Translations under genes and position numbers: made by a program
IMG/VR virus record: IMGVR_UViG_3300027573_000625
Location: 1 to 21,399 of that record
Length of the DNA: 21,399 nucleotides
From: a virus
Direction: 5' to 3' (one strand)
The notes under the pieces: generated by a model
What the model was told of the DNA's origin: nothing
Database searches by the model: none
What the model saw: only the letters and a program-made list of their open reading frames with translations
Shown here: piece after piece, positions 1-15,233 of the stretch
Layout of the letters: every line of letters starts with the position of its first letter
Position numbering within the stretch: the stretch's first letter is position 1

Positions 1-25
1 ACCTAAACCGAACCTTTAAATAAAG

Positions 26-49
26 AAGCCTCTTCACCGGGGCTTTTTT
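26..49 (+). terminator. Rho-independent terminator at left edge
   Basis: A short stem (AAGCC at 26-30 pairing with GGCTT at 41-45, ten-base loop) is followed by a run of T at 44-49. It would end transcription arriving from the left, outside the window, and it separates that unit from the promoter that starts immediately after it. The stem is short, so strength is uncertain. Confidence 0.7.
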
Positions 50-50
50 G

Positions 51-80
51 TTGCTTAATTTAAATTAAAACTTAAATTTG
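51..80 (+). promoter_or_regulatory. Bacteroidota-type promoter of the glycan cassette
   Basis: TTG at 51-53, a 19-base spacer, then TAAATTTG at 73-80 match the known Bacteroidota promoter pattern (TTG, 17-19 bases, TAnnTTTG). Transcription would start only a few bases downstream, at or very near the ATG at 84, so the first message may have almost no leader. It lies directly behind a terminator, as expected for the start of a new unit. Confidence 0.65.
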
Positions 81-83
81 GCT

Positions 84-257
84 ATGACACGACAAGAAAT
101 TAAGGCTGCCTTAAAGACCAGAGGCATCTTTGATACTAATTCGAAAGACCAACTCTGGCAGCAAGCCTTCCAATTATACTATCAGGAAACAAAACAGAAG
201 TTATCTATTAGCTGTGGCTCTTGTTTCAACCGTGTCCGTAATTGGCTACAGGCATGA
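84..257 (+). CDS. Small protein of 57 residues, first gene of the cassette
   Basis: I do not recognise the family. The product is 57 residues, begins MTRQEIKAALKTRGIF, is rich in charged and polar residues, and carries a C-x2-C pair (SCGSC) near its C-terminus, followed by a short basic and aromatic end. There is no membrane segment or signal peptide. The ATG at 84 is the first after the promoter at 51-80 and sits almost at the predicted transcription start. The stop overlaps the next start as ATGA (254-257), the same coupling used at most junctions downstream, which is the main evidence that this is a real gene. The compact C-x2-C may be a partial metal site, but one pair is not enough to claim this. 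Confidence 0.6.
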   Translation: MTRQEIKAALKTRGIFDTNSKDQLWQQAFQLYYQETKQKLSISCGSCFNRVRNWLQA

Positions 258-451
258 ATACATTAGAGACACTTACCGAAGATTTAGACAAAGAAAAGGA
301 TTATTGCATTATAGCTATTAGGTTCTTAGAAGGTTGCCCCGGATTAGAGCCTGATAAATATCCAGAACAAAGAATTGAACAATATTTTGATAGACTTAAT
401 GTGTTGGCTATTGAAAGGGCTCGTCGGTTGAAAAATATCTTTGGTTTATGA
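254..451 (+). CDS. Small acidic protein of 65 residues, unknown
   Basis: The start is set at the ATG at 254, which overlaps the previous stop as ATGA; a longer reading from an upstream TTG at 242 is possible but less likely. The product is 65 residues and looks helical, with an acidic N-terminal half (TEDLDKEKD) and a basic C-terminus (IERARRLKN). No catalytic motif, signal peptide or membrane segment is visible and I do not recognise a family. It is translationally coupled to the next gene by another ATGA overlap at 448-451. Its position at the head of a glycosyltransferase operon hints at an accessory or scaffolding role, but nothing in the sequence shows this. Confidence 0.6.
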   Translation: MNTLETLTEDLDKEKDYCIIAIRFLEGCPGLEPDKYPEQRIEQYFDRLNVLAIERARRLKNIFGL

Positions 452-1083
452 TGCACCAGATTTATTACAAGCCTGAACAGAAGACTAAGCTATATCCATT
501 TGCAACACCTTACTATAACGAAGGGCTTACTATCTTCTTCGAGAATAAACCCATTGAAGCCATTGTAAACAGTGCAGACGGCCCAACTATAGCGGTAGCA
601 AGCTGGAAATTATCACAGAAATTAAGAAGACATCAGCCTTTAACTAATGAACGGTTAGAATCTGACTACCAGGTGCTGAGTTTTACCCGGAATTCGTGGC
701 GACACAACATGATGGCGATGTCAAACCAGTGGCATCCTGGATTTATGAAGACAATTACGCTCTTGTGGGAGAAATTAGGGCTAAAAATGCCCGGAGAAGC
801 GAAACAACCTATCTACCAGAACCATTATTCCGCGAAAAGTGACATTTACAAGCGGTATGTTAACGAATTCCTGTCGCCGGCGATGGAATTAATTGAAAAA
901 GACGAAGAATTGCACAGTTTAATGGTTGTACCGTCACGTTATGGGTCATTGTCACGGGAAGCGGACCTGAAAAGTGTAAAAGAGAAGCTAGGCATGACGG
1001 ATTACCCGTTATGCCCTTTCATTTTAGAACGTTGTCCTTCATTGTGGTTCACTATTCACCGGATCCCCGTCACCTACCTATGA
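448..1083 (+). CDS. Unrecognised 211-residue protein of the glycan cassette
   Basis: A soluble-looking protein of 211 residues, rich in Trp, His, Tyr and Pro, with no signal peptide or membrane segment. Segments such as YYNEGLTIFFEN (residues 22-33), VLSFTRNSWRH and PFILERCPSLW near the C-terminus look like conserved blocks. The C-terminal pattern 'basic residues, Pro-Phe-x-LER' recalls the ends of some uncharacterised glycosyltransferase families, but I see no clear DxD motif, so I do not call it a transferase. It is coupled by ATGA overlaps to both neighbours (448-451 and 1080-1083) and directly precedes a glycosyltransferase-like gene. The most reasonable reading is a glycan-pathway protein of unknown activity. 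Confidence 0.75.
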   Translation: MMHQIYYKPEQKTKLYPFATPYYNEGLTIFFENKPIEAIVNSADGPTIAVASWKLSQKLRRHQPLTNERLESDYQVLSFTRNSWRHNMMAMSNQWHPGFMKTITLLWEKLGLKMPGEAKQPIYQNHYSAKSDIYKRYVNEFLSPAMELIEKDEELHSLMVVPSRYGSLSREADLKSVKEKLGMTDYPLCPFILERCPSLWFTIHRIPVTYL

Positions 1084-1715
1084 TTTCATTAATACATCCA
1101 AGCAGGGGAAGACCAGAACAGGCACTAAAGGCTACTCGTGATTGGTCGTTTGCTGCTGGTTCATCGGACTTTGAACACATTTTAAGCCTTGATGATGGTG
1201 ATACGGAATACTATAAGTATATAATGTATTTCGCGCCAAGTGAGATTGTAAAAGGTCCTAACAATTCAGTAGTTGAGGCAACAAATAGAGCTGCTATGGT
1301 TGCTGATGGTGACATTCTAATTTATATGTCAGACGATTTTAAGTGCCCTGAAAACTGGATTGAATTAGTCACTAAGGAATTTGCAAAGTATTCAGGCCCA
1401 ACACTTATAAAGGTTGACGACTGTCTACAAAAGTTTCACGTTCCTGTGCTGACTATCCCAATAATGAACCGTGAGCTTTATAATAAACTCGGATACTTCT
1501 TTCATCCTGACTATAAGTCTATGTTCTGTGATGAACATCTATATTGGAAGACTATGCAGTTAGGGGCCTTGAAGTTTGCACCACATTTGAAATTCGAACA
1601 CTGCCACGTATCAGTAGGCAAAGCCCCGGACGATGAAACCTATCGGAGAAGCGCAGCAAATTGGGAACAAGGAAAGGCGATGTTTGCCAAACATAAACGG
1701 GCGGGATTTCCATGA
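1080..1715 (+). CDS. GT-A type glycosyltransferase-like protein
   Basis: Probable family 2-like glycosyltransferase of 211 residues, transferring a sugar from a nucleotide-sugar donor. It opens with a hydrophobic strand and MISLIHPSRGRPEQ, the usual first strand and turn of GT-A enzymes. LDDGD (37-41) and a likely DxD-type metal site MSDDF (83-87) follow, with hydrophobic IYM before it. There is no membrane segment, so it should be cytosolic. The start at 1080 gives a 4-base ATGA overlap with the upstream gene; an upstream in-frame ATG at 1011 would add 23 residues that overlap the previous gene and do not resemble the family. It is short for GT2, so it may be only the catalytic core. Donor and acceptor cannot be told. 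Confidence 0.75.
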   Translation: MISLIHPSRGRPEQALKATRDWSFAAGSSDFEHILSLDDGDTEYYKYIMYFAPSEIVKGPNNSVVEATNRAAMVADGDILIYMSDDFKCPENWIELVTKEFAKYSGPTLIKVDDCLQKFHVPVLTIPIMNRELYNKLGYFFHPDYKSMFCDEHLYWKTMQLGALKFAPHLKFEHCHVSVGKAPDDETYRRSAANWEQGKAMFAKHKRAGFP

Positions 1716-2293
1716 GTTCACTGGCGATATTGATATGTACTTTACCGGAACGGTTCGAAAAGTTGAAGCGGTTGAAGAACATTTTAGAACCCCAGGTGGA
1801 ACGGTTCAAAGACAGGGTTTCTATTCACTACCATGACGGAGGGAGTTCGCTACCAACAGGCACAAAACGGAATTTACTAATAGAAAACAGTTCCTCCGAT
1901 TACTTCTGCTTTGCCGATGACGATGACTTAGTTTCCGCTTTCTATGTTTCTGAAATAGTTAAAGCAATGGACCAGAACCCGGACGTGATTACTTTCTGTG
2001 GGTACATTACAACGAACGGGGCCAACCGGGTAAACTGGGAGATTAAACTAGGCAATGAATATGTTGAACGGAACGGGATGTACTATCGATGGCCCAACCA
2101 TTTAGCGGTGATGAAACGGGAGCGGGTCAGACACGTAAAGTTTCCGGCTGTATGGCAGATGGAGGACTTTCGATGGTCGGAAGAAATAGCACGGAGGAAA
2201 CTACTAAAAACGGAGGTTCACATTCCGTTGGAATTGTACCACTATGACTGTATTCCAAAAACAAAAAGAGTAAATGAAAGAAGACTTCGATAA
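1712..2293 (+). CDS. Family 2-like glycosyltransferase
   Basis: GT-A type glycosyltransferase of 193 residues. It begins with the N-terminal strand and turn ILICTLPERF (residues 6-15), has a donor-binding-type segment GTKRNLL (50-56), and carries the metal and sugar-nucleotide DxD motif in FADDDDL (67-73). A later ED pair (MEDF) may hold the catalytic base. There is no membrane helix. It is coupled to the gene before it (ATGA at 1712-1715) and its end overlaps the following methyltransferase by 20 bases. It shares layout and motifs with the glycosyltransferase at 2885-3523, so the two look like diverged copies that could add successive sugars. The substrate is unknown. Confidence 0.85.
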   Translation: MSSLAILICTLPERFEKLKRLKNILEPQVERFKDRVSIHYHDGGSSLPTGTKRNLLIENSSSDYFCFADDDDLVSAFYVSEIVKAMDQNPDVITFCGYITTNGANRVNWEIKLGNEYVERNGMYYRWPNHLAVMKRERVRHVKFPAVWQMEDFRWSEEIARRKLLKTEVHIPLELYHYDCIPKTKRVNERRLR

Positions 2294-2888
2294 ATCATTT
2301 TTTCAGACCGCATGGGGGGAGGAAGGGTACTTAGAACCCTTCAGCTACGGAGTCGGTATTGATACCGTGTGTGAGGTTGGGTTAATGCCGTTCCTGTCAC
2401 CACATAAGGACGCTTTGGAAATTGGTCCAGGGGGAGGGACGTTCACACAACGGATGATAGGCCAATTCAATCACTTGACGGTGATGGATGTCATTAGAAA
2501 GCCTAAAGCATTTGATGCCTATGAGAACTTCACCTATATCGAATTATCAGATAAGAACTTTGACTGTCCTGTCGATGCCTATTCAATGGACTTTTGTTTC
2601 AGCTATAATGTCTTCTGCCACTTATCAAATGAGGCTTTAAGTAAGTATTTGAGGGGCATAAACAAAGCATTGAAGTTCGGTGGGGACTTTGTGTTTATGC
2701 TTTCAAACTACCGGCATACCAGTCAGTTCGGTAAAGGGTATTCACTCGGAGACTTCTTACCAATGGGTCATTTTTATCAGGATCTACGGACACTGGATTT
2801 GATTGTTGATTATAATGAATGGGAGGTAATTAATAACAATCTACTCCCAGACCACAGGGATATAGTATGTCACCTACGAAAGATATGA
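2274..2888 (+). CDS. Class I SAM-dependent methyltransferase
   Basis: A 204-residue methyltransferase of the Rossmann-like class. Motif I is EIGPGGG (49-55), with an acidic residue at the end of the next strand (VMDV). A motif IV-like segment follows in FSYNVFCHL and a strand in GGDFVFMLSN. The family moves a methyl group from S-adenosylmethionine; the acceptor here is not shown. Because it lies between two glycosyltransferases and overlaps both, a sugar or glycan acceptor is the natural inference. The ATG at 2274 lies inside the previous gene (20-base overlap). The stop overlaps the next start as ATGA at 2885-2888. Confidence 0.85.
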   Translation: MKEDFDKSFFQTAWGEEGYLEPFSYGVGIDTVCEVGLMPFLSPHKDALEIGPGGGTFTQRMIGQFNHLTVMDVIRKPKAFDAYENFTYIELSDKNFDCPVDAYSMDFCFSYNVFCHLSNEALSKYLRGINKALKFGGDFVFMLSNYRHTSQFGKGYSLGDFLPMGHFYQDLRTLDLIVDYNEWEVINNNLLPDHRDIVCHLRKI

Positions 2889-3523
2889 TAGCTTCTATCC
2901 TCATCCCGACAATGCCTGGAAGATTGGAAAAGTTTACCAATCTGTTCAACGAACTACATCGGCAATTGGCCTATATGCAAACTTTTCACCCAACACTGGG
3001 ACAGATTGAAATAGTAATAGACGATTCAAAACGGTTTTTAGATGGGGGACTTTCTATAGGAAAGAAACGGGAGGCATTAGTACAGCGTGCAGAAGGTAAA
3101 TATTGTTGGTTTCTGGATGACGATGAAACGATAGCGCCGAACTACCTTGAAACATTGGTAAGACTTTGTTGCAGGAATGAAGATGTATGCACATTCCGGG
3201 CCATAGGAAAATTTGATAACTATTGGGCGGTCTATGATATGTCGTTATTTAACACATGGAATGAACCCTCCACACCTGATAAAACAGTAGTTCGCCAGCC
3301 GTGGCATCAGTGTCCGGTTAAGACTGAGTATGCTAAATTATATTCATTTCCTGATACGTCCTATGGAGAGGACTGGGAATGGATGGAGCAAGTCTTAAAG
3401 CATTGCAAGTCAGAAGCCCACACGGACGCTATTTTACTTCAATACAATCACGGAAAACATTCAGAAGCAGATAAAATAACTAACCATGTACAGTCAGAAT
3501 CAGGAGGAGAAACACATTCTTGA
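2885..3523 (+). CDS. Family 2-like glycosyltransferase
   Basis: GT-A type glycosyltransferase of 212 residues. The first strand and turn are ILIPTMPGR (5-13). A GLSIGKKREAL segment (55-65) is in the place of the donor-binding strand, and the DxD metal motif is FLDDDE (76-81). The pattern EDWEWMEQ later in the protein may include the catalytic acid. An in-frame ATG at 2867 exists, but the ATG at 2885 gives the 4-base ATGA overlap used throughout this operon and places the conserved strand at the N-terminus, so I chose it. The end overlaps the following methyltransferase by 38 bases. It resembles the 1712-2293 product in motif order and spacing, suggesting gene duplication. Confidence 0.85.
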   Translation: MIASILIPTMPGRLEKFTNLFNELHRQLAYMQTFHPTLGQIEIVIDDSKRFLDGGLSIGKKREALVQRAEGKYCWFLDDDETIAPNYLETLVRLCCRNEDVCTFRAIGKFDNYWAVYDMSLFNTWNEPSTPDKTVVRQPWHQCPVKTEYAKLYSFPDTSYGEDWEWMEQVLKHCKSEAHTDAILLQYNHGKHSEADKITNHVQSESGGETHS

Positions 3524-4091
3524 ATACTTCGGATATCATGTAGGTACCTTCATCGATGTAGGTTGCAATGATTGCGAAACGTTCTCCAATACCAGGGCTT
3601 TGGCGCTCAGGGGATGGAAAGGGATACTATTGGATTGCAGTCCAACGGCTATTGATCGCTGTAAGAAACTATACAACGGACACAAGGGCATTTATATTTA
3701 CGACTATGCGATTTCATCTCACAATGGCAAAGCGATTCTACAGGAATCCGGGCCGTTATGTACTCCTTCCGATATTGGGTTGGTTAGTACTTTCCATCAA
3801 CACGAGAAGGCCAGATTTGATAGGAAGGTTAAATATGAACCTATTGAAGTTAAAACGTTCAAATGGAAGACCGCATTGAATAGGTGGAAGATAAAAGAGT
3901 TTGACTGCATTTCTTTAGACGTTGAAGGGGATGAGCTTAACATTCTACCAGATATGGACCTATCCAAAACTAGATTAATCTGTATTGAGTGGAACGGGAA
4001 ACCTGAACTAAAGGAAGCCTATGAGAAATATTTATCAGGTTTCAGTATAATTTATACGTCAGCCGAAAACATCGTTTATGCCAGAATTTGA
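3486..4091 (+). CDS. FkbM-family methyltransferase
   Basis: A 201-residue SAM-dependent methyltransferase of the FkbM type. The SAM-binding loop is FIDVGCNDCETFSNT (22-36). An acidic residue ending strand 2 is seen in LLDCSP, and the family's signature second motif is SLDVEGDE (143-150), followed by a typical IEWNG strand. FkbM enzymes commonly O-methylate hydroxyls of sugars or polyketides. In a glycosyltransferase operon, sugar O-methylation is the likely job, although the acceptor is not shown. The start lies 38 bases inside the preceding gene and the end overlaps the next gene by 14 bases. There is no signal peptide, so it should work in the cytosol. Confidence 0.88.
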   Translation: MYSQNQEEKHILEYFGYHVGTFIDVGCNDCETFSNTRALALRGWKGILLDCSPTAIDRCKKLYNGHKGIYIYDYAISSHNGKAILQESGPLCTPSDIGLVSTFHQHEKARFDRKVKYEPIEVKTFKWKTALNRWKIKEFDCISLDVEGDELNILPDMDLSKTRLICIEWNGKPELKEAYEKYLSGFSIIYTSAENIVYARI

Positions 4092-4656
4092 CATTAGTCT
4101 TTATGACGAGGACTTCTTCGAATGGCACGTAACACATGCTAGAAAGTATTCTATACGCACGATGGACTGGTACATTATTAATTACCATCCTAAAAGCGTT
4201 ATAGACTTTGGATGTGGGATAGGTAGCTATTTAGAATGCGCTTACGACTATGATATTAAGATTAAAGGCTATGAGATTTCGTGGGAAGCAGTCAGCCACA
4301 CCCCAGAACGCATACGGCCATACATTGAATACAGGGACTGCACCGAGCCAATAAACGCGGGGATATTCGATACGGTTATTTCTTTTGAAACCGCGGAACA
4401 CATTGAACCGGAAGGGACTAACCAATTCATTTTGAACCTTGTAAACGCTACCGGTAAAACGTTACTATTCACAGCAGCCCCTTTAGGGCAGGGGGGAACA
4501 GGGCACATCAACTGCCGGCCTAAAGAGTTCTGGATAATGGAGTTAAGTGACCTCCTGATTTACAATGACGTTTTAACCGGGGAGATATCAGAGGCATGGG
4601 AGAAACTTGGAGCCCCGTGGTATATCGTTAAAAATCTAATGGTGTTCAGCCGATGA
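4078..4656 (+). CDS. Class I SAM-dependent methyltransferase
   Basis: A 192-residue methyltransferase. Motif I is DFGCGIGSY (43-51), a conserved acidic residue follows in GYEIS (64-68), and motif IV-like FETAEHIEPE (103-112) includes the EH pair common in this superfamily. The C-terminal block APLGQGGTGHINCRP resembles a loop found in small methyltransferases that sit in glycosyltransferase clusters. Acceptor unknown; glycan or sugar is inferred from context. It is the third methyltransferase in the operon and differs clearly from the other two, so each may act at a different position. It overlaps the preceding gene by 14 bases and the following one by 4 (ATGA at 4653-4656). Confidence 0.85.
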   Translation: MPEFDISLYDEDFFEWHVTHARKYSIRTMDWYIINYHPKSVIDFGCGIGSYLECAYDYDIKIKGYEISWEAVSHTPERIRPYIEYRDCTEPINAGIFDTVISFETAEHIEPEGTNQFILNLVNATGKTLLFTAAPLGQGGTGHINCRPKEFWIMELSDLLIYNDVLTGEISEAWEKLGAPWYIVKNLMVFSR

Positions 4657-5282
4657 TAATTGTCAACTTCTCCACAAAAGGCTACGGGATGTTGCAACGC
4701 AGACTGCGTCATTCGTTAGCGGGTCACAGAAGTATAATGTTCAGCAACTATGGGCAGATTGATAGCCCAACACAACAGGAAAGCCCCTATCAGTTTAAGA
4801 TACATTCCATAGAAAGGGCATTTCTTCAGGATGATATCGTTTTATGGTGTGATTCATCACTGTTTCTGGTTGGAAACCTACATATCATCGACAATCTTAT
4901 AAAACAGGATGGCTATTTTATGGAGGAGGCGGGGCATTGGGTAGGGTCATGGACAAATGAGTTTACAAAGGATTATTTTAAGATGACAGAGGAAGAACTC
5001 GCGGTCCCTGGGGGGATATTCATGTTTACCGCTGGGTGCTTGGGATTGAACAGACAGAATCAGACAGCTATGGAATGGTTCAGACAGTGGAAGGAGGCGG
5101 CGCTTGCGGGATGCTTTAAAGGTCATTGGCACGATCACCGACACGACATGACCTGTGGTTCGATAATAGCCCAACGGCTGGGAATGAAGTACCAACGGGG
5201 AGGTAAGTACCTTGCTTATGTGGGGCCAGACTACCCCAAACCGGAGCCGGGTGTTGTATTTAAGTTAAAAGGATACTTATGA
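4653..5282 (+). CDS. Probable GT-A type glycosyltransferase
   Basis: A 209-residue protein with the layout of a GT-A glycosyltransferase. YQFKIHSIERA (46-56) resembles the helix that precedes the donor site, and DIVLWCDSSLFL (61-72) has the hydrophobic strand and an Asp-x-x acidic turn in the place of the DxD motif. A Trp- and His-rich segment, GHWHDHRHD, may form the acceptor side. The canonical DxD is reduced to CDSS, so metal use may differ; this lowers confidence in the catalytic call but not in the gene. It is coupled at both ends by ATGA overlaps. Substrates cannot be told. Confidence 0.7.
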   Translation: MIIVNFSTKGYGMLQRRLRHSLAGHRSIMFSNYGQIDSPTQQESPYQFKIHSIERAFLQDDIVLWCDSSLFLVGNLHIIDNLIKQDGYFMEEAGHWVGSWTNEFTKDYFKMTEEELAVPGGIFMFTAGCLGLNRQNQTAMEWFRQWKEAALAGCFKGHWHDHRHDMTCGSIIAQRLGMKYQRGGKYLAYVGPDYPKPEPGVVFKLKGYL

Positions 5283-5473
5283 GAATTCTACTGGCGTGGT
5301 GGTTCTGGTTTACCAACAGAAACGATGAAGTCGCCAGACAGCGACTAAAAATATGTTCTACGTGTGAAAAAATGAAATGGGGGATATGCAAAGTTTGTGG
5401 CTGTCCATTGCAAACTAAAGCGAGATTGTTAGATGAAATATGTCCGCATCCGGATGGAAACAAGTGGAATTAA
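5279..5473 (+). CDS. Small Cys-rich zinc-ribbon-like protein
   Basis: A 64-residue protein whose middle carries C26-x2-C29, then C37-x2-C40-x-C42 and C55, a pattern suited to binding zinc. Short proteins with this 'ICSTC ... CKVCGCP ... CP' layout recur in tailed phages, but I know no established function. The N-terminus is hydrophobic and aromatic (LLAWWFWF), perhaps a membrane-touching or hydrophobic contact face. It is the last gene of the cassette, coupled to the previous one by ATGA at 5279-5282. Its stop codon ends at the first stem base of the terminator at 5473. Confidence 0.7.
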   Translation: MRILLAWWFWFTNRNDEVARQRLKICSTCEKMKWGICKVCGCPLQTKARLLDEICPHPDGNKWN

Positions 5474-5510
5474 AAGGGGGCCAATCGCCAACAAGCCCCC
5501 TTTAATATTT
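5473..5510 (+). terminator. Strong Rho-independent terminator closing the glycan cassette
   Basis: A 9-base-pair stem (AAAGGGGGC at 5473-5481 with GCCCCCTTT at 5495-5503), a 13-base loop, and a T-rich tail through 5511. It begins at the last gene's stop codon, so it should end the transcript started at the promoter at 51-80. Confidence 0.85.
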
Positions 5511-5522
5511 TCGCCGGACTTA

Positions 5523-5550
5523 TTGGTTTTACCGACGCGAAGTAAATATA
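5523..5550 (+). promoter_or_regulatory. Possible promoter for the 5571 gene
   Basis: TTG at 5523-5525, a 17-base spacer, then TAAATATA at 5543-5550, which matches TAnnTTTG at only part of its fixed positions. The preceding terminator means the next gene needs its own promoter, which is the main support. Weak by sequence alone. Confidence 0.3.
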
Positions 5551-5570: not shown

Positions 5571-6323
5571 GTGAAGTTATGCGCTATTTACAACGTATGG
5601 GCCGATTGGGATATTTTAGAATATTCGCTTAAAAACATAGAGCCGCTTGTCGACGGAGTCATTATAGTCGGCTCCACTAAGAGCAACTTTGGGGAATATT
5701 ATCCAATACCTGAGAATTTCCGCGACAGGGTAGCCATACGTGAACCACAGTTTAAAACAGCCCGCGAAAGTGAGACAGACAAGCGTAATTTCGGATTAGA
5801 CTTAGCACGGTGGGCAGGGTTCACCCACTTCCTAACTATCGACGCTGACGAATTCTACGACCCTGAAAAATTCATCTTAGCTAAAAAATTAGTTGACGAC
5901 ACTGGACTTATTGGGCTGGTTTGTACCTGTACCACTTACTTTAAAAGCCCTACTTTAACGATTGGATTGGATGTGACGCTGGTTCCCTTCATACACGAAC
6001 TTACCCCGACTATTAAACACACCTTCAACAGAAACTATCCCTATGCGTGGAACGGGACTCAGATTCGGATAGACCCTACCCGGAGTTTGAATATTGATGA
6101 TGGGGTATTTATGGTTGATATTACCATGCATCACATGTCATGGGTACGAGCAGACATCAAACGTAAAATCAGGAACTCCACGGCAAAAGCGAATTTAGAT
6201 CGATCTACCATATTGGAAGATTTGGCCAATGCAAAGCCGGGTTACTACTGTCGTTTTTACCAAAAGACACTGATAGAATGTGAAAACCGGTTTAATATTA
6301 AGTTAGACGAAAGCCAATCCTAA
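5571..6323 (+). CDS. Glycosyltransferase with a DADEF metal motif
   Basis: A 250-residue cytosolic glycosyltransferase-like protein. It starts with the strand KLCAIYNVWADWDILEYSL (residues 2-20), a layout seen in family 2 and family 92-like enzymes. It has a motif FLTIDADEF (87-95) containing the DxD metal site, and a later HHMSW segment (187-191) in the region where such enzymes bind the acceptor. The GTG start is forced, because the codon just upstream is an in-frame TAA and the conserved strand begins immediately. It lies outside the main cassette, after its terminator, so it may be regulated separately. Its 3' end overlaps the convergent HNH gene by 21 bases. The donor sugar is unknown. 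Confidence 0.85.
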   Translation: MKLCAIYNVWADWDILEYSLKNIEPLVDGVIIVGSTKSNFGEYYPIPENFRDRVAIREPQFKTARESETDKRNFGLDLARWAGFTHFLTIDADEFYDPEKFILAKKLVDDTGLIGLVCTCTTYFKSPTLTIGLDVTLVPFIHELTPTIKHTFNRNYPYAWNGTQIRIDPTRSLNIDDGVFMVDITMHHMSWVRADIKRKIRNSTAKANLDRSTILEDLANAKPGYYCRFYQKTLIECENRFNIKLDESQS

Positions 6324-6751
6324 TTTACCTCTATGTATTTTATGATGATCATACTTTAATCCTCTGGCCTTCATTGCTTCGGCACCGTTATCATAATAGA
6401 TACCAGTTAAAAGGTCGAGACATAGTTTTGACCTACACGTGTATTTCATCAGTTTTCGGTATGCATGTATCCTATTCTCGGAAGTAGTGGCCCATTCCAA
6501 ATTTTCGACTCGGTTATCAGTTTTAATGCCGTTTTTGTGGTTTATTTCCGGCTTATTTTCTGGATTGGCTATAAATGTGAGTCCGATGAGCCTATGAACT
6601 GATGGCCATTTTCTAATATCATTAACTGATAAACACACAGATTGATATCCACACTTATCAATTGATAATTTATGGTAGTGCCTCTGTGGCTGTAGATATT
6701 ACCCTGATCATCAGCAGAGTAAAGACCCTCATAACTTGGAATTGGCTTCAT
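6303..6751 (-). pseudogene. Frameshifted NUMOD4-HNH homing endonuclease
   Basis: Read from 6751 leftwards, the first frame gives MKPIPSYEGLYSADDQGN, a NUMOD4 DNA-binding start. The second frame, open back past 6680 and ending at 6303, gives HYHKLSIDKCGYQSVCLS and then an HNH core with VHRLIGLTFI, EINHKNG and NRVENLEWAT. The two parts belong to one protein of about 149 residues, and joining them needs a one-base insertion around 6680-6690. HNH proteins of this type nick or cut DNA and spread the gene to homologous sites in related phages. The gene is on the opposite strand to its neighbours and its 3' end overlaps the glycosyltransferase. It may be a decaying copy or a sequencing error. Programmed frameshifting is not supported by any slippery site I can see. 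Confidence 0.85.
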
Positions 6752-6833: not shown

Positions 6834-8465
6834 GTGGCAGAACTGAAATATCCCGGAGGTATGGACGTAAAGAAAATCACTGAGCCTTTATACAAGATTT
6901 ATAACTTCGTAGTAAGGGAATTTGCCTACACTCAACAGGTAGAAATGTCCGGTCAATATCTCCCCTTCGGGCCGGATGATATGTTCCCCAATAAATTAGC
7001 TGCCTTAGTTCAAGGTTCACCCACCGCGACCGCGTGTTTATCTACAATGGTAGACTTTGTGACGGGGGAGGGATTTAACAAAGGCATAGGACTTGAAAAT
7101 CTTGTTATTAACAATCAAGGCTTAAAGTTATTTCGATATCACTCCATACAATCGGATTCATTGGTCCATAACTGGGGTGTTGCTTCCATAGTGAAGTACA
7201 ACCAGGCGGGGGAGATTACCCAGATATTTGATATTCCTTTTGCTTACTGCCGACTAGGGAAACCTGATGACAGAGGTATAATTTCTAAGATACTTTACAA
7301 TCCCTATTTCGGGACGGGGCTTTACAACAGAGCGCAGACGGTAGAATATGACGTCTACAATCCAACCGCGGCCACCGTTCAGATGGGACTGGATAAGAAA
7401 TGGAAAGGACAGATAAATTGGCTTGGCATTAAAGACCAGAAACATCCGTTTTACCCTATACCTGACTATTATTCTGCTTCCCACTGGATGAATGTAGAGA
7501 AGAACGCGGCCGTTTACTTCGATACAAACTTAGAGAACGGGTTCCTTCAGTCTATGGTCCTTAAAATGGTGGGCGACCCTAACGACGTTTCCGGCAAGAA
7601 GGATGGCAACGATGAGGATATTACCAAAGGGAAGTTACTGGATGAAATGTTAACCCACGACTTTTCAGGTCCAAAGCGGGCGCATAAGATAATGACCCTG
7701 TGGGGAAACAACAAAGAAGAATGGCCCGAGCTTGCAGCTTTCCCTACAAATGCGAATTCAGATTTATATCGCGTCCAGGATGAACAGGCCACCCGGAAGA
7801 TAAGCATAGCTACCAAAGTCCCCGCTATTCTAGCCAATGTAAACGACGCTAATAACTTCGGGGGGGAGCAGATTCGCCCAGCGGTGAAATTAATGCAGCA
7901 ACGCGCCAAACGGCCACAGGATTTGTTGATAGACTATTACTCGGATATGTTGAAACGGTTCATTAATCCTGTCACCGTTCCGATAAAAATAGTCCCTTAT
8001 AACCCGTTCCCAGAATTAGAGAGCATAGATCCGCAAGTGTGGGGCGTAATGACGCTGGAAGAACAACGGAAATGGACACAAGACCACACAGAAATAGAAT
8101 TAACGCTTACTACCCCTCAAACACCGGCTGCACCTGTCGAAAACAGGTTTGTGAACCTACATTTTGACTCTTATCCGGCGGGAGCGAAGGCAAATGCTAA
8201 ACGGGCGGTAGAATGGGAGGAAAAAATGCAAACTTTCTGTCAACCGAAGAAGGGAAGGATGTTGACAGACCAGATTTTGAACGGAATTCCACTGGGACCG
8301 AAGGAAATCAAGCGTTTATCACGGTATTTAAGTAAAAATACTATACACAAAGACAAACCTTATGGCGAAAGCTGCGAGGCGGTGATGTATGACGCGTGGG
8401 GAGGGTCTGAAATGATGGTTTGGGCTAACGAAAAAGTAAAAGAGTTAAATGGCAAAGCTGATTAA
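6834..8465 (+). CDS. Phage portal protein with an extra C-terminal helical domain
   Basis: A 543-residue protein called as the portal, the ring at the capsid vertex through which DNA passes. The early block LPFGPDDMFPNKLAALVQ and the following TACLSTMVDFVTGEGF are typical of Bacteroidota phage portals, as is the later stretch ISIATKVPAILANVNDANN. Residues 444-537 form a separable unit (FDSYPAGAKANAKRAVEW ... MYDAWGGSEMMVWANEKV). It resembles a helical module with the pattern 'YP..A..NAKRA ... WGG ... WA' that occurs in other phage head proteins. The GTG at 6834 is the longest start; an in-frame ATG at 6861 sits directly behind GGAGGT, too close for normal use. The end overlaps the next gene by 17 bases. 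The family call comes from motif memory, not a search. Confidence 0.75.
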   Translation: MAELKYPGGMDVKKITEPLYKIYNFVVREFAYTQQVEMSGQYLPFGPDDMFPNKLAALVQGSPTATACLSTMVDFVTGEGFNKGIGLENLVINNQGLKLFRYHSIQSDSLVHNWGVASIVKYNQAGEITQIFDIPFAYCRLGKPDDRGIISKILYNPYFGTGLYNRAQTVEYDVYNPTAATVQMGLDKKWKGQINWLGIKDQKHPFYPIPDYYSASHWMNVEKNAAVYFDTNLENGFLQSMVLKMVGDPNDVSGKKDGNDEDITKGKLLDEMLTHDFSGPKRAHKIMTLWGNNKEEWPELAAFPTNANSDLYRVQDEQATRKISIATKVPAILANVNDANNFGGEQIRPAVKLMQQRAKRPQDLLIDYYSDMLKRFINPVTVPIKIVPYNPFPELESIDPQVWGVMTLEEQRKWTQDHTEIELTLTTPQTPAAPVENRFVNLHFDSYPAGAKANAKRAVEWEEKMQTFCQPKKGRMLTDQILNGIPLGPKEIKRLSRYLSKNTIHKDKPYGESCEAVMYDAWGGSEMMVWANEKVKELNGKAD

Positions 8466-10719: not shown

Positions 10720-13338
10720 ATGAATAACGATATCATTGAATATAGCATACCATCTTTTAAAGAACTTTCTAAAAAGTGGGAAGCGCCAAGAATCAGGATT
10801 AAAAAGCTACTTCCTGATCTGACTATTTATCCATCACGATGGACCTATTTAGTCTCAAACGAGAAACGACCGCACACAATTACGTTAGAAGAGTTCAGGA
10901 AGAAGAAACTCAAAGCCGGAGATAAAGTTTATTTTGAGCGTGGACAGATTTACAATTGGGCTGAATACGATGTAATTACAGACGATAACACATTCGGTTC
11001 GTTTGGCTCTGGCGCTGATCCTATATTTTACGGATCTGATTCATACATCGCAGCAACATGGACATCTGAAACCGGAGGATATTATTCGACCCCGCTTGCT
11101 ACTGCTCCATTATGGGTTGCAATTAACGGTGAATGCGCAAGGCAAGGGGAGACGGATTGGATTCCGACAATTACGAATTCAACTTCGAATACTATTGCCG
11201 GTGCTCCGGCAACATTGAATGCTTTTAATTCTGTGATGTTGTTGGCTAATAATACCAAGCTAAGGATGAAAGAGTTTTTTTTCAGACTTTCTTATGAGCA
11301 TTTAGTTACGGGATATAACACAGGGACCGGTTTAATGAATATTGGAGCCGGTGGTGTTGTGGGAGGTGTGCAGGGAATGCCTTTTAAACTATACGGGCAA
11401 AAGCAATTTGCAACCTTGGAGGGTGATTGGTGGTATGATGATCCAAATAATAAACTGTGGATTAAAACGGTAGCAACTCCATCGGGAACAGACATTCGGG
11501 TAATAACAGAAAATTATGCTTTTAAAGTTAACGGGGCAAGTAACGCAACCTTTGAAAATATAGACTTCACACAGTATTATAACACAGCGATCGACGCACC
11601 GGATGCGCCAAACATCACAGTTAATAACGTAGATGTACACGACAACCGTACAAACGCGTTCATGTTCTACGGTAATAATACAACGTTTACGTTATCAAAT
11701 TTTGCACTTGAGCGAATAGGACTTAATGCAATTCACATCGGGGCTGTTTCTGGTGGTTCAATAACTGACGGTACAATTGAACATACGGGCAAACAGGATA
11801 ATATAGGATGGCCTCATGATACCTATTGGATTAAAACTGGTGGTGTCCCTATCTGTTGTTTCTGGGATTCCGGGGAGTCTGTAACGCAACCTGATAACGT
11901 AGATATTGACTCTGTTGTAATGTCCAATGCAGGATATATAGGAGTACTTTTTATTGGGGATAACCACAGTGCAACAGAATGTATAGTCCATGACTTTTGT
12001 GAAAAGTGGAACGATGGCGGGGGATTCTACACAATTCACAGAAACACGTTAGGCACATCAACTAAGAATATAACATTTACGAGATGTCATGCTTATAATG
12101 GCATTGGCTCTATAGAGGGCATAACACCTGATGCGCTACTATTTAGCCATGCAGAAGGTTTTTATATTGACAACGGTAGTGAGTTAGTAACTATAGACGA
12201 GTGTGTAGCTTATAACAATTCGGAATTTGGAATACTGTGCAACTGGGATACTCAGAAAACGACTATTACAGACTGTATTGTTTATGGCAATTTAAATTCA
12301 GGGGTGTGCTTCAGAGAGGATACAGCTGGGGGGTCTTCTCCCGTATTTCCAAATAATGATGGCAATATATTCACAGGTAATATTATTACTGCGTCTGATT
12401 TAAATTACTGCGTTGAAATCATTAGCTTCAATGGTAGCACTACTTATAACCCTTTCTCTGATTCTGGTGATTCGGATAATAATAAATATGTAAGACCGTA
12501 CGGAAGCTCTGTAAATGCTTCACGGTCTACCCAGCTAGGAACCCAAACGCCGTATGCCATTGCAGCATGGCGTACCCGTATTGCTGATGACGCGTCTAGT
12601 ACGGAGCGTTATGAGTCAACCTATAGGTATAAAAATCCTCTTAAAACCAGGGCTGAGGAAGTCAGGATAGCAACCAATGAAACATCCTCTACGACAACAT
12701 TCAACGGTACAGGTTACCACAGCATAACAGGATCAGCACTTGGAAGCAGTGAAAATATTGCAGCGTTTAGTGCTGTTGTTTATTTGGTTGATACGTGGCC
12801 GGTTCCAGATTATTTATTCGATGATTTTGTAGCTGCAAACGGAACAGCTATCGCAGGACGTACCCCGCCAGTAGGGCCTATCCCCGTAATTGACGCGGGA
12901 ACACATACGATACAATCTCAAGAAATGGTGTCCAGTGTTGGTGGGGTTGTTAATTGGGATATAGCTCAATCAAATTTCGATTTTACTGTAAGAACAAGGT
13001 GTACAACTACACTAGCGGGGTCTGGTAGTGGACTTGGAACATATTTCAGGCGTGTGAATGATAACAACAGAATGGTTATCAGTTTTTCGACTACATCGAT
13101 AACGTTATATGAGTTTAATAACAGTGCATCTGTTACAAATACCTGGGTAGTTTCCCGGACGTTTGGTAACAATGACACTTATTTCATTTCGGTTCGTGCA
13201 AACGGTACGAGCGTTAAAATATGGGTAAATAATATTTTACAGATTGACATCACAACATCTTACACGACAGCTGGGAAGGTCGGTATATTAGGCGCGACAG
13301 GTAGGGCTACGGATTATGTTTTAGCAGAATCATTATGA
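10720..13338 (+). CDS. Large beta-helix tailspike with C-terminal jelly-roll domain
   Basis: An 872-residue probable tailspike or receptor-binding protein. Residues 1-55 form a charged adaptor. A beta-helix cap follows with the pattern LKAGDKVYFERG, and then many Asn- and Asp-rich turns spaced through about residues 270-600, as in right-handed parallel beta-helices of the pectate-lyase superfold (ATFENIDFTQYYNTAI, PNITVNNVDVHDNRTNAF). From about 695 to the end comes a concanavalin/laminin-G-like jelly roll, with FDDF near its start, SVKIWVNN in the middle and GILGATGRA near the end. Phage proteins with this plan bind or cleave host surface polysaccharide, but I see no catalytic residues I can name. 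No signal peptide. The end overlaps the next gene by 4 bases. Confidence 0.75.
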   Translation: MNNDIIEYSIPSFKELSKKWEAPRIRIKKLLPDLTIYPSRWTYLVSNEKRPHTITLEEFRKKKLKAGDKVYFERGQIYNWAEYDVITDDNTFGSFGSGADPIFYGSDSYIAATWTSETGGYYSTPLATAPLWVAINGECARQGETDWIPTITNSTSNTIAGAPATLNAFNSVMLLANNTKLRMKEFFFRLSYEHLVTGYNTGTGLMNIGAGGVVGGVQGMPFKLYGQKQFATLEGDWWYDDPNNKLWIKTVATPSGTDIRVITENYAFKVNGASNATFENIDFTQYYNTAIDAPDAPNITVNNVDVHDNRTNAFMFYGNNTTFTLSNFALERIGLNAIHIGAVSGGSITDGTIEHTGKQDNIGWPHDTYWIKTGGVPICCFWDSGESVTQPDNVDIDSVVMSNAGYIGVLFIGDNHSATECIVHDFCEKWNDGGGFYTIHRNTLGTSTKNITFTRCHAYNGIGSIEGITPDALLFSHAEGFYIDNGSELVTIDECVAYNNSEFGILCNWDTQKTTITDCIVYGNLNSGVCFREDTAGGSSPVFPNNDGNIFTGNIITASDLNYCVEIISFNGSTTYNPFSDSGDSDNNKYVRPYGSSVNASRSTQLGTQTPYAIAAWRTRIADDASSTERYESTYRYKNPLKTRAEEVRIATNETSSTTTFNGTGYHSITGSALGSSENIAAFSAVVYLVDTWPVPDYLFDDFVAANGTAIAGRTPPVGPIPVIDAGTHTIQSQEMVSSVGGVVNWDIAQSNFDFTVRTRCTTTLAGSGSGLGTYFRRVNDNNRMVISFSTTSITLYEFNNSASVTNTWVVSRTFGNNDTYFISVRANGTSVKIWVNNILQIDITTSYTTAGKVGILGATGRATDYVLAESL

Positions 13339-15233
13339 GGTGGATAGTTAAAAAGATAATGAGATTGATTTATAAAATATATAGAGGATGGCATACACCA
13401 AAATATTATATAAAAATACTTCTATTTATTTTGTTATCGTTGCCATGCATAGCACAGGACTCACTACACATCGAAGAGCTTGGGGTATACGTGAAGACCA
13501 CTGAAACGCCTCCACCGATCCCAGTGGATTCTTTCCTGACCATTGATAATGCAACCAAAGGTATTCAAGGATATCAGCACAACTACACAGGTAACTGGAG
13601 TGAAGGAACAAGCGCCAACTGGTATGCTACCACGCTTACCTATACCGCCAATGGCGCTGTGACCTTCCGTTTCAATGGAACAAAGATCGAGTGGTACACC
13701 GAGAAAGGACCGACTCATGGTAAAGCGGCGGTTTCAATTGACGGAGGATCAGAAACTATCATCGACCTGTATGCCGCCGCATTTGCTCAGAAAGTGAAAG
13801 TGTTTGAGCGTGTTACCACGCAGGATATTCACACCATAAAATTACGCTCTACCGGCACGAAGAATCCAGCGAGTAGCAACACGTACTTGCTAACGGACTT
13901 CTTCAAAATCAAAGACCCGGGGTTCGTCCCTGATACTGTCCCCCCCATTCCTCCGCCAGTCACCGGAGATATTATTGTATCGCCCGGACAAAGTATCAAG
14001 GCTGCTGTAGAATCAGCGACATCCGGCAAAGTCGTAAGTCTGCTGGAAGGAACCTACAACGAGAATCTGATAAACGTTCCTGTCGGAGTATCAATTGTTG
14101 GCGCTGGTAAACTGAAGACTATTATCAACTTCACCGGAAGTATGCCACAACAATCCGAAACAGCGATGTTTCAACTTAAAGGAGGATCACTGGTACGTAT
14201 TATGCCGATGACTATGGGTGTTACTGGCATCATGCTACTGGTTCTATTATGGTTGATAGCCAACTACGGACCGTGGACATCGCGGGTCAAATTAATAGTA
14301 ACAGCAGTTATCGTAGTCATCATAATCGGAATTATTATCTACATCCTGAGTCCTCAACCTTCACAACACGCCGCAGGGAATCAAACCATATCCGGCTTCA
14401 CCATCAATGGTAAGTTCCAGTGTAACGGTGGGATCATGGTAGATGGTCGCGACAACGTCAAGATTCTGGACGTCAAAGTTCAGGAGACAACCTATTTCGG
14501 TGTATGGCTGAAGAACACCGCCAACAGTGAGTTTGCCAATAGTGACCTGTTCAACTCTAGTTGGGCTTCTGTTGGATGGGTCACGGGCGAACTCTGTGTA
14601 CACAACATCACTAACACTATGATCCACCATAACTTCTTTAAGACTACACGCAATGATAAAGGATATGGCATTAAAGGTCTTTGGCCGGATGGAACGGTAA
14701 CTAATTCAAAGTTCTATAATAACAAGTTTGAGCTAACGCACTTTAGTTTATGGAACAATGGGTCAGCGCCAAACATCGACATCGAATTACACAATACTTT
14801 CTATAACGGTATTGAAATCTACGAGAATGACTTTTCAGTGATGGGCTTATCATTAGCATCGCATAGACCAACTAAAGGCGGCAGGACCATTGTACGCAAC
14901 AATCGTTTTGTATGGTGTTCAACCGCTCACATTGAACTGGTCTGCTCAAACATAACCATTGGCCCGGGTAACGTGTTCTCAGGCGCGCCGATGCTGACAG
15001 CGAATTTTCAGCCTAATGGAAAGTGGACGGACATTATCGTAACCGGTAACACCTTCACCAGCAACGGCGCTAATCCAAGCTGGGGAGGAACGCATTTAAT
15101 AGGGGCGAATGGGATGGACATGACCATTACTAACAACGTCTACAATAATTTGGGGGGGTATACCTTTGTCAAGCACATGGGAGCGCCTGCGAATAGTGTG
15201 GTAGTGGACACAGGAAACACCAAGAACCAATGA
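13335..15233 (+). CDS. Secreted-type beta-helix protein interrupted by a membrane hairpin
   Basis: A 632-residue mosaic. Residues 1-41 are a basic N-region and hydrophobic stretch ending ...LPCIAQ, like a Sec signal peptide. Residues about 70-192 form a jelly-roll domain that is also present in the next gene (shared KIEW, HG, DGG and TGTKNPAS elements). A Pro-rich linker (194-210) leads to a parallel beta-helix starting IIVSPGQSIKAAVESA. At 286-343 a 58-residue insert carries two membrane segments (about 295-309 and 318-338). The beta-helix then continues to the end with Asn-rich turns. The insert is in frame and bounded by TCAC repeats. Start at 13335 by ATGA overlap; M9 at 13359 is an alternative. 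A signal peptide is unusual for a virion protein, so it may be exported by the host during infection. Confidence 0.75.
   Translation: MRWIVKKIMRLIYKIYRGWHTPKYYIKILLFILLSLPCIAQDSLHIEELGVYVKTTETPPPIPVDSFLTIDNATKGIQGYQHNYTGNWSEGTSANWYATTLTYTANGAVTFRFNGTKIEWYTEKGPTHGKAAVSIDGGSETIIDLYAAAFAQKVKVFERVTTQDIHTIKLRSTGTKNPASSNTYLLTDFFKIKDPGFVPDTVPPIPPPVTGDIIVSPGQSIKAAVESATSGKVVSLLEGTYNENLINVPVGVSIVGAGKLKTIINFTGSMPQQSETAMFQLKGGSLVRIMPMTMGVTGIMLLVLLWLIANYGPWTSRVKLIVTAVIVVIIIGIIIYILSPQPSQHAAGNQTISGFTINGKFQCNGGIMVDGRDNVKILDVKVQETTYFGVWLKNTANSEFANSDLFNSSWASVGWVTGELCVHNITNTMIHHNFFKTTRNDKGYGIKGLWPDGTVTNSKFYNNKFELTHFSLWNNGSAPNIDIELHNTFYNGIEIYENDFSVMGLSLASHRPTKGGRTIVRNNRFVWCSTAHIELVCSNITIGPGNVFSGAPMLTANFQPNGKWTDIIVTGNTFTSNGANPSWGGTHLIGANGMDMTITNNVYNNLGGYTFVKHMGAPANSVVVDTGNTKNQ
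14187..14364 (+). other. In-frame two-helix membrane insert in a beta-helix gene
   Basis: A 174-base (58-codon) segment interrupts the beta-helix coding sequence. TCAC occurs at both edges (14187-14190 and 14361-14364), and removing one copy with the insert restores a seamless frame (Gly-Gly-Ser-Gln-His). The encoded peptide has two hydrophobic helices joined by a turn with W306, L307, Y311, P313 and K319. The same residues at the same spacing occur in the lone membrane protein at 18613-18798 (W18, L19, Y23, P25, K31). The four-base repeat could be chance. Confidence 0.6.

Follow-up and report, generated by a model that had tools for sequence, protein, structure and literature searches.

A position-conserved glycan locus reassorting gene by gene between the capsid and portal genes of probable Bacteroidota phages

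Background

In the literature surveyed, experimental proof of virion glycosylation by phages comes from mycobacteriophages only (PMC11256854, PMC12363180): the capsid of Che8 carries covalent glycans (PMC11256854), and in Che8, Corndog and Myrna glycosylation shields the virions from antibody binding (PMC12363180). As described by Freeman et al. 2023, in so far as that work is cited in PMC11256854, PMC12363180 and PMC12619734, these systems are clusters of soluble phage glycosyltransferases, and a similar cluster is the subject of this report. It comprises a cassette of eleven genes (g1 to g11) and the gene g12 that follows it, in IMG/VR record IMGVR_UViG_3300027573_000625, a viral record of 21,399 bases that is taken here as a whole and is called the window below. 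The products of g5 and g7 are homologous to the actinobacterial-phage glycosyltransferases Che8 gp108, LittleE gp15 and Mareelih gp91. The LittleE cluster follows the major capsid gene, with gp15 directly after it, whereas the Che8 cluster lies at the genome end and the present one lies between the capsid/182-aa gene and the portal gene. The systems also differ in that the window belongs to another phage lineage, probably with other hosts, and in that several methyltransferases, enzymes of the g10 and g12 types and extensive gene-wise exchange are seen here.

The chlorovirus PBCV-1 (A064R and related proteins) likewise combines glycosyltransferases with a methyltransferase to produce a methylated capsid glycan, and chloroviruses also encode a GDP-mannose dehydratase (PMC7019647), as do two relatives of the window. 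A PBCV-1 glycosyltransferase matches the g10 fold (Z 12.7); however, PBCV-1 is a eukaryotic virus whose glycan is on asparagine, and the likeness seen to the present locus is one of fold. The S-glycosyltransferases ThuS and SunS, which glycosylate peptides (glycocins) directly, provide the best structural match of g12, but with 13-14% identity, in another context, and with an acceptor of g12 that is inferred. Finally, phages from cryoconite carry interchangeable alleles at fixed points of conserved Bacteroidetes phage genomes, although those alleles chiefly encode DNA methyltransferases, homing endonucleases and tail fibres (PMC7468147), whereas here a whole glycan locus is concerned. Against this background the window holds a genuine glycan locus with an ordered gene set, which most likely serves to glycosylate the virion and is a variant of the virion-glycosylation systems already known. 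What is unusual about it is the fixed capsid-side place combined with gene-wise reassortment, the persistence of the peptide-glycosyltransferase-like g12 without the cassette, and an uncharacterized RNA element.

Results and discussion

A fixed and ordered glycan locus

Scanning IMG/VR with the portal protein, g3, g10 and g12 yielded 86 non-redundant loci, one of them an adjoining stretch added by hand. One of the relatives is complete, a 43.3-kb record with overlapping ends, in which the gene order is terminase, tail genes with a tape measure, a ClpP-like head protease, capsid, 182-aa protein, cassette, g12 and portal; the capsid is assigned by position and size, its PHROG match being weak and of unknown function. 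Presence was counted in the 26 loci that extend from the 182-aa gene to the portal gene. In all 26 the locus lies between the capsid/182-aa gene and the portal gene. The genes of the locus in the window are listed here, with the number of the 26 loci holding each gene in brackets:

84..257, + strand: g1, uncharacterized 57-aa protein with a conserved CGSC..R.WL end; no Pfam or PHROG match (21)
254..451, + strand: g2, uncharacterized, lineage-specific 65-aa protein, found only in the near-identical contigs L015/L018 (1)
448..1083, + strand: g3, uncharacterized 211-aa protein, among the most conserved of the module (24)
1080..1715, + strand: g4, GT2 glycosyltransferase (Pfam GT2, E 8.9e-6; phrog_14945, 5.4e-21), the most divergent allele (23)
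1712..2293, + strand: g5, GT2 glycosyltransferase (Pfam), paralog of g7 (23)
2274..2888, + strand: g6, class I S-adenosylmethionine methyltransferase (Pfam Methyltransf_11, E 3.2e-7) (7)
2867..3523, + strand: g7, GT2 glycosyltransferase (Pfam GT2, E 6.2e-8), paralog of g5 (18)
3486..4091, + strand: g8, FkbM-family methyltransferase (Pfam PF05050, E 1.1e-9), with two allele groups among close relatives (21)
4078..4656, + strand: g9, class I methyltransferase (Pfam Methyltransf_23, E 5.6e-7) (5)
4653..5282, + strand: g10, glycosyltransferase of GT-A fold by AlphaFold2 model and structural matches (23)
5279..5473, + strand: g11, 64-aa protein, DUF6171 / phrog_13558, with zinc-ribbon-like cysteines (19)
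5571..6323, + strand: g12, glycosyltransferase of GT-A fold and proposed initiator, outside the eleven-gene cassette of the first-pass annotation (26)

As had been noted, the eleven cassette genes overlap at every junction (ten of ten, by 4 to 38 nucleotides). The earlier tally, four genes resembling those of glycosyltransferases and three of methyltransferases, also stands: g4, g5 and g7 are of the GT2 family and g6, g8 and g9 are methyltransferases, while g10 is retained because its model has the GT-A fold. No accepted family was recovered for g1, g2, g3 or g10, and g3 further gave no sequence match in the PDB or among cultured phages. Assembly and methylation of a sugar structure by the module are well supported by its GT2/GT-A and FkbM/TylF families and by the occurrence of a GDP-mannose 4,6-dehydratase (E 3.5e-114) with a cupin in the slot of two relatives, identified by Pfam in L072 and by close sequence resemblance in L065. 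TylF methyltransferases are found in the variable slots of L006, L072, L116 and L054, a hexapeptide acyltransferase in the slot of L117, and an IS1595 transposase in L061.

A candidate initiator downstream of the cassette

The first-pass annotation had described the cassette as a self-contained, discrete unit, a description that does not hold, for the expression unit extends to a fifth glycosyltransferase gene, g12, and in many cases on into the portal gene, whose start g12 overlaps in close relatives. Each of the 44 loci in which 1.2 kb or more precedes the portal has g12, and in L110 and L111 it is the sole gene separating the 182-aa gene from the portal, which constitutes a cassette-less state of the locus. 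Neither Pfam nor PHROG gave a match to g12, but its AlphaFold2 model, which is confident for residues 1-190, matches GT2-like enzymes, with ThuS (7msk; Z 14.3, 183 residues, 4.1 A) at the top, followed by SunS (7msp; Z 13.4, 163 residues, 2.7 A) and then WrtF (12.7). It also carries a DAD motif of the DxD type. The model of g10 (mean pLDDT 85) displays the GT-A fold, with the bacterial enzyme BoGT6a (4ayj; Z 12.8, 186 residues, 3.3 A) as the best structural match and the PBCV-1 glycosyltransferase 2p73, whose title names the viral major capsid, as the second (170 residues, 3.3 A); it has no DxD motif and no sequence match in cultured phages or the PDB. Considering its constancy, its place and its predicted fold, g12 is most likely the initiator that would put the first sugar on a virion protein.

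The probable target of the glycan

The earlier suggestion had left the target open between virion proteins and the host surface. The former is favored by 1) the position of the locus between capsid and portal; 2) the predicted absence of transmembrane segments from all cassette proteins, which are thus soluble; 3) the absence of matches to integrase and resolvase families in eight near-complete relatives; and 4) the resemblance of g5 to Che8 gp108 (30% identity, E 6e-15). The fold likeness of g12 to peptide glycosyltransferases and of g10 to the PBCV-1 capsid enzyme, the place of LittleE gp15 after its capsid gene, the related clusters beside structural genes of other phages and the failure to find relatives in the bacterial genomes scanned point the same way. 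We therefore think it probable that the locus glycosylates virion proteins of a tailed phage with a methylated glycan whose genes are exchanged.

Modification of a surface glycan or of O-glycans of the host during infection, which would block superinfection or change the receptor, is the more serious of the alternatives but still unlikely. In its favor, bacteria use FkbM and TylF methyltransferases on their surface sugars too. Moreover, the O-glycans of Bacteroidota are species-specific and frequently bear methyl groups (PMC12871550). However, the cassette encodes soluble proteins and no flippase, polymerase or lipid-carrier glycosyltransferase, and it sits inside the structural gene region; hallmarks of the serotype-converting gtr operon, namely the membrane flippase, the lipid-carrier glycosyltransferase and the temperate phage, are not found here. 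Lysogenic conversion was rejected on the same lack of integrases and resolvases in the eight near-complete relatives.

Glycosylation of phage DNA bases is highly improbable, even though phage glycosyltransferases with such a role exist (Pyle 2024, as cited in PMC12619734). A base hydroxymethylase of the thymidylate-synthase family was not found in twelve related records in a search with positive controls, and no Tet/JBP match was found in a search whose control stayed silent; furthermore, O-methylation and deoxysugar enzymes do not fit such a role, and the genes lie among structural genes. Thus, with no transmembrane segments in the cassette proteins, and no integrase, resolvase or base hydroxymethylase found in the related records searched, a virion target fits better than either of these two alternatives.

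Certain observations nevertheless weigh against glycosylation of the virion. Neither g5 nor g7 matches Che8 gp110, the glycosyltransferase named essential for Che8 capsid glycosylation (PMC12363180). In the g12 comparison ThuS and SunS lead other GT2 enzymes by just some 1-1.5 Z units, and past residue 190 the model of g12 is of low quality. One of the most widely conserved cassette genes, g3, is without known function. Lastly, the extension of the glycan is not essential, since a cassette-less lineage exists.

Gene content and order, conservation, gene-wise exchange and the predicted folds are what the analysis shows; we infer the virion-protein target, and likewise what each enzyme does and how the phage benefits. 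In the mechanism that we propose, soluble enzymes produced late in infection would act in the cytoplasm and furnish a freshly synthesized structural protein with a short glycan, either ahead of assembly or while it proceeds. The first sugar would be attached to the protein by g12, the chain would be extended by g4, g5, g7 and g10, and g6, g8 and g9 would O-methylate it to give methyl caps, with nucleotide sugars derived mostly from the host. Since close relatives trade single genes and half-genes, every phage would have a serotype-like glycan of its own, which may mask the virion from binding or neutralizing molecules or alter adsorption. If a capsid-side locus keeps its position while its genes reassort singly, this would suggest that for phages in the environment the sugars of the coat serve as a changeable identity, anchored by a glycosyltransferase of the peptide type. 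The locus thereby yields a short list of candidate enzymes, g12 first, and of candidate virion proteins.

Exchange of genes and half-genes within a fixed locus

Among the window and its close relatives L002, L003 and L013 the portal proteins are 97-99% identical, but g4 shows just 49-76% amino acid identity. The genes of the cassette group these four phages in conflicting ways: g8 unites the window with L003 against L002 with L013 (85 supporting sites versus 4 and 0 for the other groupings), g9 sets L013 apart, and g10 sets L002 apart. Between the window and L002 there is a breakpoint inside g4, with 37-60% identity in the first half and 85-96% in the second, and g9 of L013 shows a similar within-gene pattern. 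These conflicting groupings and within-gene breakpoints argue that, between phages this closely related, the cassette is not transferred as a single unit, and on account of the g8, g9 and g10 groupings such transfer was rejected within the lineage. The proposal that the module could move between phages as a unit therefore needs to be divided: within the lineage the place is fixed and it is single genes or half-genes that are exchanged, but over larger distances the families of g4, g5, g8, g10 and g12 recur clustered in other phages, beside the tail sheath (L115, L083), beside terminase and portal (L113) or beside a tape-measure-like gene (L084). The presence of such clusters in different phage types implies that the entire kit has spread.

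The patchy distribution of g2, g6 and g9 and the insertion of HNH genes and of the IS1595 transposase in some relatives could also be explained by moron genes that loosely accumulated at a tolerant site and share no joint product. We regard this as quite unlikely, given that g3, g4, g5, g8, g10 and g12 occur mostly in the same order, each in at least 21 of the 26 relatives, and that the genes of the window overlap tightly. Glycosylation of the virion by an ordered set of enzymes remains the reading that we prefer.

Transcription signals and a two-hairpin RNA element

The cassette had been described as bounded by terminators and headed by a near-perfect promoter. The elements in question are:

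19..52, + strand: intrinsic terminator of the upstream capsid operon, a hairpin with a T-run found by terminator scan
47..80, + strand: putative Bacteroidota-type promoter, TTTG ... TAAATTTG, whose -7 element TAAATTTG (73-80) ends 3 nt before the ATG of g1
5473..5546, + strand: two-hairpin RNA element with complementary loops, with covarying stems in relatives and enriched upstream of g12

The upstream terminator is real, as a hairpin with a T-run is kept 3' of the 182-aa gene in nearly all relatives while the stem sequences change; but since it is also present in the cassette-less L110 (and L111) it belongs to the capsid operon, which it ends. The promoter motif occurs in the window at chance frequency (18 found, 20.2 expected), so that its count lends no support; however, TAnnTTTG sits 4-6 nt before the start of g1 in at least 14 relatives and its end lies 3-6 nt from that start in many, and on account of this conserved position the promoter is probably real. 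Its distance from g1 suggests a leaderless or nearly leaderless transcript.

The strong terminator claimed downstream of g11, in contrast, is not supported: the terminator scan did not call the hairpin at 5473-5503, whose loop is 13 bases long and whose T tail is interrupted, and relatives have a second hairpin after it, with a T-run that is variable or absent. The two-hairpin element is found in relatives at L002:6331-6403, L033:8829-8894, L059:307-377, L008:6064-6130, L004:2989-3053 and L050:8056-8126, while in about half of the relatives g11 and g12 overlap directly, without it. Stem sequences differ among relatives yet stay paired, and the loops of each pair are complementary (for example TTTCCA/TGGAAA, CAACC/GGTTG and GTTTCAAC/GTTGAAAC). 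Stems were set by hand, automatic alignment of the element being poor; with these, cognate loops match better than permuted ones (P 0.0006 over the full set, 0.003 when twelve representatives are taken). A mechanical descriptor, which makes the positional test independent of the hand assignment, picked out 123 pairs of hairpins on the two strands of 989 kb, 23 of them within 160 nt upstream of g12; loop matches of at least 4 were present in 16 of these 23 as against 30 of 100 elsewhere, related sequences entering these counts repeatedly. In the window the second hairpin chosen by the descriptor differs from the one set by hand. Rfam gave no match to the element at the gathering score. The predicted two-hairpin form is well supported, and the loop complementarity is suggestive of a kissing contact. 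We tentatively entertain the fuller possibility, somewhat less probable than not, that this is a serotype-like locus of tailed phages with a constant initiator g12, a near-constant core of enzymes and interchangeable alleles for glycosyltransferases, methyltransferases, acyltransferases and nucleotide sugars, giving different methylated glycans on near-identical capsids of close relatives, and that in some of the lineage the kissing-loop RNA, of a kind not described before, would control expression of g12 and portal.

Host range and neighboring genes

No relative was found when bacterial genomes were scanned with the portal and with g12. The promoter type and the distant relatives of portal and g12 in phages of Bacteroides, Cellulophaga and Prevotella indicate that the host is probably a member of Bacteroidota, and the uncultured phage is probably a tailed, lytic one of Bacteroidota type. 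The distant g12 relatives in Prevotella Lak megaphages are about 30% identical to it across two thirds of its length.

Two further genes define the downstream edge of the locus:

6303..6638, - strand: HNH endonuclease (phrog_59, E 4.5e-24), inserted exactly at the g12-portal junction
6834..8465, + strand: portal protein (phrog_11226, E 7.9e-45), the downstream anchor of the locus

The locus as such adjoins the portal, as had been stated, but in the window the HNH gene stands between g12 and portal. Its insertion alters the C-terminus of g12 here; it is absent from that site in L002, L003 and L013, and an HNH gene occupies the same site in L022 and L061.

Downstream of the portal, two large putative tail genes (10720-15233; 872 and 632 aa) differ between close relatives, and the gene at 10720 has no counterpart in the compared part of L003. 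In L016 (3476-4811) and L063, both from one sample, g3 and g4 appear inverted beside a truncated capsid gene, which could reflect either chimeric assembly or a true inversion.

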